64,000 nucleotides of DNA from Natronorubrum halalkaliphilum. Its GTDB lineage: Archaea > Halobacteriota > Halobacteria > Halobacteriales > Natrialbaceae. The notes under the pieces were generated by a model that saw only the letters and a program-made list of their open reading frames with translations, was not told the origin of the DNA and searched no databases. The stretch spans positions 1-64,000 of the forward strand of contig NZ_WUYX01000041.1 in assembly GCF_009834785.1 (NCBI RefSeq), in the 5' to 3' direction. Shown here one piece after another: positions 29,810 to 48,514 of this stretch (positions within the stretch are counted from its first letter, which is position 1; every line of letters starts with the position of its first letter). Both the position numbers and the translations under genes were made by a program.

Positions 29810-30262
29810 ATGCCCTCCAGACGGACCGTACTCGGTCTCTCGAGCGGTGCGGCGATAGCAACGACTGCCGGCTGTCTGGGAACCGTCCGCGACCGATTTG
29901 AGTCGGACCCCGACGTCCTGTTGGAGCGAATCGTCGTTACGAACCTGACTGAGACGGACCGTTCCGCCGAACTCGCCGTCGTTCGGGACGGCGAGGTCGA
30001 CCTGTGGCAAACGTTCGATATCGAAGGGAAAGCGGGACAGACCGTCGATTCACAGCGAATCCCCATAGACGAACTCGGCGAACCGGTCGAAGCGTACGAA
30101 ATCGGCGCGAACGTTGCAAACGTCGGCACCAGGTGGTTCGATCTCGACGACGCGGTGTCCGAGGCCACGACTGACCGGTGTCAGGAGGCGGACAAGTCGA
30201 TACAATTCTACGTCGAGATTCGATCCGACGAGTGGATCGGATCGATCGTTTTCTGCGAGTGA
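29810..30262 (+). CDS. Small secreted lipoprotein (Tat/lipobox signal)
   Basis: 150 residues. The signal peptide MPSRRTVLGLSSGAAIATTA has the twin-arginine pattern S-R-R-x-x-L-G, and it ends in a lipobox TAGC (Cys near residue 22), so the mature protein should be lipid-anchored on the outside of the membrane. The mature domain is a beta-rich fold with conserved-looking strands such as RIVVTNLTETDRSAELAVVR and ends in a short IVFCE. It belongs to the many haloarchaeal lipoproteins of unknown role. The stop codon TGA (30260-30262) touches the first palindromic element of the window. Confidence 0.8.
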   Translation: MPSRRTVLGLSSGAAIATTAGCLGTVRDRFESDPDVLLERIVVTNLTETDRSAELAVVRDGEVDLWQTFDIEGKAGQTVDSQRIPIDELGEPVEAYEIGANVANVGTRWFDLDDAVSEATTDRCQEADKSIQFYVEIRSDEWIGSIVFCE

Positions 30263-30343
30263 TACGGATTGCTGTAACTATGTACCGCCGATCACCAGGG
30301 ACGTGGTCGGTGATCGGCGGTCATTGACTACAGTAAACCGTAT
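30262..30343. repeat. 82-bp palindromic element, copy A
   Basis: Starts ATACGGATTGCTGTAA and ends TACAGTAAACCGTAT. The whole element is one imperfect palindrome (base i pairs with base 83-i). The inner stem ACCGCCGATCACC (30284-30296) pairs perfectly with 30309-30321 around a 12-base loop. It shares its last base pair position with the lipoprotein stop codon. It is about 95 percent identical to copy B (4 differences, opposite orientation). Confidence 0.9.
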
Positions 30344-30463
30344 GAGTCACGAAGATCGGAATCGACGACCTGCAGTCAATTCACGTCCGATCGCACAGTA
30401 GTCGTGCGATCCGTGACATGAACAGCAGGTACGCTTTTGCGCTTACCGAAAAATCCTCCCGAT

Positions 30464-37552: not shown

Positions 37553-37634
37553 ATACGGTTTACTGTAGTCAATGACCGCCGATCATCGACCCCGTCCCTG
37601 GTGATCGGCGGTAACTAGTTACAGCAATCCGTAT
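37553..37634. repeat. 82-bp palindromic element, copy B
   Basis: ATACGGTTTACTGTA at one end and AGCAATCCGTAT at the other; on the minus strand it aligns with copy A with only four mismatches over 82 bases, so A and B are an inverted pair about 7.3 kb apart. The stem pair ACCGCCGATCA/TGATCGGCGGT is intact. It lies between the KDG kinase stop and the promoter of the next gene. Confidence 0.9.
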
Positions 37635-46446: not shown

Positions 46447-46533
46447 AGACGGACTGCTGTACCGGCGTACCGGTGCGATCCCAGATCGGCCGTGGGTGAT
46501 GGTCGTACCGGTACCGATTACAGCAGGCCGTCT
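46447..46533. repeat. 87-bp palindromic element, copy C (divergent)
   Basis: Ends AGACGG-ACTGCTGTA and TTACAGCAGGCCGTCT. Relative to copy A the second base of the left end and its partner on the right have both changed (ATACGG/CCGTAT becomes AGACGG/CCGTCT), so pairing is kept. Inside, GTACCGGT-like blocks on the two arms pair with a one-base bulge. It fills the gap between the convergent kinase and zinc-finger genes (64 and 10 bases from their stops). Confidence 0.75.
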
Positions 46534-46837: not shown

Positions 46838-46944
46838 GACTGTGACGACACCGTGCTATTACTTAGCAATTATCTCATTCCTCGTCGGATCCGACTATCA
46901 CGTTGCCCGATTGGTCGGTTCGACGGATCGTTTCCGCTCGTCTT

Positions 46945-47026
46945 ATACGGATTGCTGTAACGATTCACCGGCGCAACCGCCGCCCGGGTCGCGGTTGCGC
47001 CGGGAATGACTTACAGTAAACCGCCT
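46945..47026. repeat. 82-bp palindromic element, copy D
   Basis: ATACGGATTGCTGTAA at the left, TTACAGTAAACCGCCT at the right; identical length and ends to copies A and B, but the inner stem has changed to CCGGCGCAACCGC (46968-46980) pairing perfectly with 46991-47003 around 10 bases. The symmetry axis is the same as in A (i + j = 83). The right end touches the TAA stop codon of the minus-strand metallophosphoesterase gene. Confidence 0.9.
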
Positions 47027-48444
47027 TAGTCCCGTTCGATTCCGTCCGCTCGGGCGCTCCCGTCTCCGTCGGCGGTGACGGACTTCCGTCCGGACCCGGA
47101 GTCGGGTTCGGGCGCCGTTTGGGGCACCTCGAGCGGACCGTCGGGATCGATCACCGTCCGTTCCGGGATCGGCTCCGCGGACGGCGGGCGGCGCGCGACC
47201 AGTCGCTGAAAGCGGGTGAGATCCCGCGGTTCGTCGGTCTCGATCTCCTCGTACTCGATGACGATACGGTCGCCCTCGGGAAAGATCCTGAAGTAGTTCA
47301 GCCGAAACGAGGGTGCGTAGACGCCGGGGAGCCGCGAGAACCACGTTTCGGCGTGCTGGAGCTTCTTCAGCCAGGTTCCGGTGTTGACGACGGCGCGGTC
47401 GCCCCACTTCGTCAGCGACGCTCGGTGGGTGTGGCCGTAAACGTAGACGGCGACGTCGGGGTTGGACTCGAAAACGTCTCTGGCCGCGTTCAGGAAGGGC
47501 TGGTCGCCCTGTCCGACGCGGACGCCCGAAAGCATGACGCCGAAGCGATCGAGGGTGTGACTCAGGTCGCGTCTGAACAGCCACAGCGGGATCGCCAGCA
47601 ATAGCAGGACGACGATGATCACGATATTGATCGCGATAATGAGTTCGAGCACGATGTCGGCGATACCCAGCGCGTGGAGCACCGGATTGTCGGTGAACAG
47701 CCACGACGGGACGACCCCTGCGACCTCGAGGATCGTTCCCGCCAGGTAGAGCAGCGTGAGGTTGAAAAACAACAGCAGCGGGACGACGATCGCCCGCAGA
47801 AACGGGCTCATCTCCCGGTAGAAGTAGTTCGAGAGGAGCCAGCGCGGGAGTTCCTCCATCGGCGCGACCGACTGGATATCGCGCAGCCAGTCGCCTCTGG
47901 CGCGTCCGGAGTAGCGGCCCGCGGCGGCGACGATCCGCTGGACGACGAAGTAGCCGACCGGGAGCGCGTCGGGGTTTCCCCAGTCGGACAGCCGGTTGTT
48001 CGCGTCGTGTTGTTGGCCGTGTTCGATCCAGAGCAGGGGGCTCCCGTCCGCGCCGTCACCGACATCGACCTCGCGGGTGATCGCGATCACGGGCTCGAGC
48101 GTGACGTTGAACTCGGCGAGCCGATCGATGTGGGCTGGGTAACAGGCGAGATCGTAGTCGTGGTTGCCCGGGATGAGGGTGATGTCGATCTCCTCGCCGG
48201 TCGCCCGGAGCTGTTCGAACACCCGCGGGTGGTCCTCGATCACGCGCTCGAGTTTCGCCGGCCCCGTCACCTCGGCGTACTCCCACAGCCCGAACGCGTC
48301 GCCGTTGATGATCAGTTCGACGTCGCCGCCGCGTTCCTCGAGATCCGCGAGAAATGCGAGCAGTTCCGCCTCGAAGTCGAGCGCCGTGAGCTGCTCGTCG
48401 CCGCCCATGTGGAGGTCGCTGATAAAGACGTACTCGCGGGCCAT
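47026..48444 (-). CDS. Membrane-inserted metallophosphoesterase
   Basis: 472 residues from ATG 48444. The metallophosphatase motifs occur in order: D-x-H in FISDLHMGG, GD in INGDAFGL, GNHD in PGNHDYD, GHTH in VYGHTHRA. Between GNHD and GHTH an insert carries two long hydrophobic stretches (LRAIVVPLLLFFNLTLLYL and IVLELIIAINIVIIVVLLLL, about 220-290), so the catalytic domain must be tethered to the membrane. LpxH-like enzymes split UDP-diacylglucosamine; haloarchaea lack lipid A, so another phosphodiester in the membrane is likely. The last 60 residues are a disordered tail. The stop codon touches palindromic copy D. Confidence 0.82.
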   Translation of the reverse strand: MAREYVFISDLHMGGDEQLTALDFEAELLAFLADLEERGGDVELIINGDAFGLWEYAEVTGPAKLERVIEDHPRVFEQLRATGEEIDITLIPGNHDYDLACYPAHIDRLAEFNVTLEPVIAITREVDVGDGADGSPLLWIEHGQQHDANNRLSDWGNPDALPVGYFVVQRIVAAAGRYSGRARGDWLRDIQSVAPMEELPRWLLSNYFYREMSPFLRAIVVPLLLFFNLTLLYLAGTILEVAGVVPSWLFTDNPVLHALGIADIVLELIIAINIVIIVVLLLLAIPLWLFRRDLSHTLDRFGVMLSGVRVGQGDQPFLNAARDVFESNPDVAVYVYGHTHRASLTKWGDRAVVNTGTWLKKLQHAETWFSRLPGVYAPSFRLNYFRIFPEGDRIVIEYEEIETDEPRDLTRFQRLVARRPPSAEPIPERTVIDPDGPLEVPQTAPEPDSGSGRKSVTADGDGSARADGIERD

Positions 48445-48514
48445 TGGGGGAATCGAGCATCGTACCATGCGCGGTCGGTTAGTGGTTTCCCCGGTCGCGG
48501 CCCGTCGAACGCTT

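Follow-up and report, generated by a model that had tools for sequence, protein, structure and literature searches.

Covarying stem arms are normally the best evidence for a functional RNA that a sequence can offer. In the first 64,000 nucleotides of contig NZ_WUYX01000041.1 of Natronorubrum halalkaliphilum (the window), copies of a short near-palindromic element carry different inner stems, and the original prediction read the joint change on both arms between copy A and copy D as a signature of selection for folding, with gene conversion between the arms added in brackets. The locus raises the question of whether this pairing is maintained by selection on an RNA or produced at the DNA level. 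The window holds four copies of the family, starting at 30263, 37554, 46448 and 46946, and the relevant features are as follows.

30263–30342, plus strand: copy A, with an A-type stem; its target-site duplicate TGA at 30260–30262 is the stop codon of the ORF at 29810–30262
37554–37633, minus strand: copy B, with an A-type stem; target-site duplicate TGA on the plus strand
46448–46532, plus strand: older, diverged copy of the family (nhmmer E 2.5e-7)
46943–46945, no strand assigned: target-site duplicate TTA to the left of copy D
46946–47025, plus strand: copy D, an 80-bp near-palindromic MITE-like element with a D-type inner stem
46946–46959, plus strand: left terminal inverted repeat of copy D, TACGGATTGCTGTA
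46960–46967, plus strand: left spacer of copy D, conserved, asymmetric and mostly unpaired
46968–46980, plus strand: left arm of the inner stem of copy D, CCGGCGCAACCGC
46981–46990, plus strand: loop or core of copy D, CGCCCGGGTC, of which both orientations exist among family copies
46991–47003, plus strand: right arm of the inner stem of copy D, GCGGTTGCGCCGG
47004–47011, plus strand: right spacer of copy D, conserved, asymmetric and mostly unpaired
47012–47025, plus strand: right terminal inverted repeat of copy D, TACAGTAAACCGCC, its final two bases diverged from TA
47026–47028, no strand assigned: target-site duplicate TTA to the right of copy D, read on the minus strand as TAA, the stop codon of the ORF at 47026–48468
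47026–48468, minus strand: gene for a calcineurin-like phosphoesterase of 480 aa; copy D has duplicated its TAA stop codon as target

The stems of copies A and D exist exactly as originally described and share one symmetry axis, copy A carrying ACCGCCGATCACC at 30284–30296 and its complement at 30309–30321, and copy D pairing 46968–46980 with 46991–47003 at zero mismatches (fold z = −6.9 against dinucleotide shuffles). While the common axis of the proposed 82-bp element stands, the unit is 80 bp long and the stems do not share an offset: the A stem occupies pairs 22–34 of the 80-bp frame and the D stem pairs 23–35, one base further in. Read inwards from either end, the element begins with a terminal repeat of 14 bp in which two mismatches are fixed, followed on each side by a conserved asymmetric spacer (about 8 bases), then by the inner stem (12–13 bp) and finally by the core (about 10–12 bases). 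The terminal-repeat mismatches, A/A and G/T at frame positions 6 and 9 (46951 and 46954), are kept in most copies. Since these mismatches and the asymmetric spacer are conserved across genera, the two ends of the element are probably not interchangeable. The diverged copy at 46448–46532 lies 414 bases ahead of copy D and is flanked by a large sensor-kinase-like ORF and a DUF7562 gene.

Copies were gathered by pattern search and from sequence stretches. The strict pattern gave at least 73 copies in the 4.56-Mb genome of the host, and the end motif alone occurred at 188 places, compared with 0 for a reversed control pattern. Among 81 oriented copies of this genome, 63 carry the A-type and 18 the D-type stem; D-type copies are also present in other genera. 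These copies rule out copy D as a random palindrome or misassembly, and a stem fixed throughout the genome, the other circumstance in which the original prediction would have failed, is likewise not what was found. Relatives contribute about a dozen further stem types, the perfectly paired ones including GCAACC, GCACCC, CCAGCC, TGCAACC, CCCGACC, GTAACC and TGAGACC, among others. Family copies number dozens to hundreds per genome in Natrialbaceae haloarchaea, with hosts including Natrarchaeobius, Salinadaptatus, Natronococcus, Natrialba, Natronolimnohabitans, Natronorubrum and Halopiger. Strict copies reach 113 in genome G020 and 69 in G021, with few in other congeners. Plasmid-borne copies were found in Natrinema, Natrialba magadii, Natronorubrum and Halomontanus, and no family copy in the phages searched.

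Several lines of evidence identify the element as mobile. Identical 3-bp flanks were observed in 205 of 262 copies (TCA 99, TGA 99, TAA 3, TTA 3 and TGT 1); as direct repeats, these are target duplicates lying outside the inverted repeat. Most copies are 78–80 bp long, and 80 bp leaves no room for a gene; 97.8% of the outer pairs form in the 14-bp terminal inverted repeats. The orthologous metallophosphoesterase locus of copy D was found in four congeners (G009, G005, G006 and G003), and the element is absent in all four, where the intergenic DNA is too diverged for a base-exact empty site to be aligned. At a second site, another copy stands directly 3′ of a gene stop in the host genome, while unrelated DNA occupies this place in 9/9 congeners. 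The preceding gene, which we take to be cysteine-desulfurase-like from its C-terminal sequence, encodes a protein ending at the same codon in 10/10 genomes. About 35 near-identical young copies in G020 indicate recent activity. Short and lacking a transposase gene, bounded by terminal inverted repeats and a target-site duplication, dispersed in many copies and polymorphic for insertion, copy D falls among the non-autonomous MITEs (miniature inverted-repeat transposable elements) and represents a new family of an established kind. No description of the 80-bp family was found in the openly accessible literature searched.

The search for an autonomous partner covered the transposase families PF01609 and, in G020, PF00665. 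None of the PF01609 loci in G000, G020, G021 (11 of 47 loci fetched) and G003 is bounded by the ends of the element, and PF00665 in G020 gave none. Scanning 1.29 Mb of fetched DNA for ends 0.1–3.5 kb apart revealed only neighbouring miniature or nested copies and no paired ends around any gene. Since the search yielded no autonomous element sharing the terminal repeats, we infer the transposase, which would be of the DDE type and act in trans.

An alignment and covariation test of the kind proposed in the original prediction was carried out on 77 distinct 80-bp copies, aligned gap-free. In the inner stem, 8 of 12 pairs have changed on both arms, giving 146 doubly changed cells versus 44.8 in shuffled alignments, which bears out the claim that the arms changed together and did not simply decay. 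The covariation score, a statistic in which related copies are counted many times, was 0.243 against a shuffled mean of 0.078, with 0 of 500 shuffles as high; it fell to at most 0.097 when the partner was slid by 1–3 columns. The proposed pairs are formed in 96.2% of cases across the 77 copies, compared with 25–42% for the slid partners. No pair of the outer helix has changed on both sides, as expected for a protein-binding end.

That this covariation reflects selection for folding, as was originally proposed, was not upheld by any test. Selection on one RNA strand should allow G-U pairs but act against A-C mismatches, which are G-U on the other strand. The counts of G-U and A-C were 25 versus 27 in the host genome, 8 versus 11 in Salinadaptatus and 5 versus 10 in Natrarchaeobius, and no G-U excess appeared even when each copy was scored on the strand of the gene upstream of it (41 versus 36). 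The 51 A-type copies of the host genome contain 30 single-arm changes and no compensated double; with 0.39 coincident doubles expected by chance, the absence of doubles is chiefly a sign that copies tolerate broken pairs. Divergence at stem sites is no lower than at unpaired sites (2.6% versus 1.5% at sites 15–18); the ends, over-conserved by the mode of collection, did not serve as a measure of constraint. Stem mismatches average 3.2 in copies with at least three end changes and 0.9 in copies with none, so that, with end changes taken as a measure of age, pairing decays as copies grow older. Individual copies are under no folding constraint after insertion. It is accordingly very improbable that the element is transcribed and its RNA hairpin selected copy by copy as a terminator, 3′-UTR stabiliser or small RNA, even though the predicted hairpin is strong (z about −5 to −7), many copies stand directly after stop codons, where a 3′ hairpin could act, and the covariation score taken alone would favour such a role. 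The copies show hardly any preferred orientation towards the upstream gene (43 versus 33), and an Rfam scan of the window returned only one tRNA at the gathering threshold, with no match to the element.

Gene conversion between the arms, the bracketed alternative of the original prediction, is better supported. The core is inverted between otherwise identical copies in 12 pairs from four species and six outer contexts; one such pair lies 696 bp apart on contig C38 of the host genome, both members sharing a private AAGTG variant. The core thus flips between the arms. In the young G020 cohort (35 copies), most copies carry one stem mismatch, which appears to be resolved to G/C in two copies and to C/G in one, and three cores are flipped, while the remaining 22 stem sites together account for only three changes. 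The chance of three matching resolutions is about 1e-4 but rises to about 0.09 when the C/G copy is the sole derived one, since the two G/C copies could represent the ancestral state. A polymerase that switches template between short inverted repeats has two named outcomes, homogenized arms and an inverted spacer (PMC8604942), and in RNA genes template switching has been shown to produce compensatory changes at several bases, mimicking compensatory evolution (PMC8794818). Because the core flips and a mismatch appears to be resolved in both directions, copying from arm to arm in DNA fits better than RNA selection, and we infer template switching as the molecular cause.

Taken together, copy D probably belongs to a family of non-autonomous MITEs in which DNA sequence passes from arm to arm by template switching and whose subfamilies were amplified from source copies. 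While the element is replicated, the strand being synthesised on one arm would change to the other arm as its template, so that a mutation may be copied from arm to arm, resembling a compensatory change, or the core between the arms may be inverted. Such events would hit all copies, and those occurring in actively transposing source copies would be amplified into newly paired subfamilies, of which the A-type and D-type stems would represent two lineages. Once inserted, a copy would drift and its arms decay independently, a course for which no folding function is needed.

Two further explanations of the paired subfamilies were considered. Covariation could instead arise through selection for mobility, if an extruded or single-stranded DNA hairpin formed part of the transposition substrate and only well-paired source copies multiplied. 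We give this a modest chance of being correct: almost every abundant subfamily has a stem that pairs perfectly or nearly so, the palindrome is kept across genera despite changes in sequence, and selection among source copies would also yield paired subfamilies, such that sequence alone does not separate it from template switching. However, the most successful young subfamily of G020 has reached about 30 copies with a permanent G-G stem mismatch, arguing against strict selection for a perfect hairpin in transposition; the main subfamily of G021 likewise carries a stem mismatch, and the core inversions require exchange between arms regardless. Alternatively, each subfamily might have been founded by capture of its own pre-existing palindrome between the shared ends, making the stem types independent and any process of covariation superfluous. 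The A and D stems do differ at most central positions at once, with few intermediates between them, but the D side displays graded two-arm changes of one to two bases (GCAACC, GCACCC, GTAACC, GAAACC and CCAGCC), and one copy of G020 (C72) joins the GCAACC and GAAACC types through a shared core, leaving this capture scenario hardly credible.

In the placement of the copies, the stop codons of host genes stand out. In the host genome 31 of 77 copies, and in all genomes 92 of 228 (about 40%), begin precisely where a called gene has its stop codon, versus only 4–5.5% stops at control non-coding TGA/TCA sites, these ratios being approximate as they rest on a home-made gene caller that under-calls genes. 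At those copies the duplicated 3-bp target is the stop codon itself (46943–47028 and 30260–30345 in the window; loci L010–L078 and L141–L237). The target consensus around the duplicate, approximately GACTSAGWC (GAC-TSA-GWC), favours stops after Asp codons and lifts the expected share of stops from 4.6% to 13–17%, compared with 41% observed, so that the target motif explains the preference only in part. Independent annotation agrees, with three of four plasmid copies abutting annotated stops (of genes for archease, an FAD-dependent oxidoreductase and a PHP-domain protein) and the fourth lying 14 bp off. It is conceivable, though rather doubtful, that stop-targeted insertion, harmless to the gene, sets a strong hairpin at the start of the 3′ UTR and that host or element exploits it as a portable 3′-end module, the pairing again being kept by template switching in DNA and not by RNA selection. 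Stop codons as exact insertion targets offer a testable point on how a transposon spares its host.

The transposase that moves REPINs is of the Y1 type, and these elements are not known to leave a target duplication of 3 bp. The present element resembles REPINs and the REP-RAYT system (PMC3116915) in being short, palindromic and dispersed, but differs from REPINs in its 3-bp target duplication. It shares with the HqIRS MITEs of Haloquadratum walsbyi a short, non-coding and dispersed form with terminal inverted repeats and target duplications (PMC3119063); some of those families likewise have no intact transposase copy that was found (PMC3119063). Unlike HqIRS, it is 80 bp long, almost wholly palindromic, flanked by TSA target duplicates, of different sequence and host family, and with no autonomous partner found that shares its ends. 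The SMR elements of Haloquadratum, which are 80–110 bp long with inverted terminal repeats, a high copy number and an unknown mobiliser (PMC3119063), are similar in these respects; however, they do not duplicate their target and are directed mostly at other mobile elements, whereas the present element makes 3-bp duplications, often in the stop codons of host genes. The duplication rules out membership of the SMRs. As predicted for template switching at imperfect inverted repeats (PMC8604942, PMC8794818), the family displays spacer inversion, multi-base compensatory changes and apparent arm homogenization, but the published cases cited concern yeast coding genes and RNA genes, whereas here hundreds of transposed archaeal copies are available.

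The family combines hundreds of copies and strong covariation, yet every test of RNA selection made here fails. Most likely, RNA-like conserved pairing can arise without selection on RNA, and the family provides a natural control set for covariation methods, through which the rate of template switching in archaea becomes measurable.

Nested arrangements of small elements were also observed. In a congener, 80-bp copies are split by insertions of 78–109 bp (L095:494-682 and L096:420-577), and elsewhere members of the 80-bp family have inserted into or directly next to one another, as though a target already duplicated had been used again (L250, G021:C1:1979850-1980150; L110:494-594; L105:2167-2328). 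A second miniature family of about 100 bp, with ends TAGGGATTRTCGTA and the same TGA/TCA duplicates, occurs in 9 of the 61 Natrialbaceae genomes searched (L222:4216-4315, L166:1429-1528, L251:1504-1603, L253:1504-1602 and L255:1504-1602), and one of its copies directly adjoins a copy of the 80-bp family.
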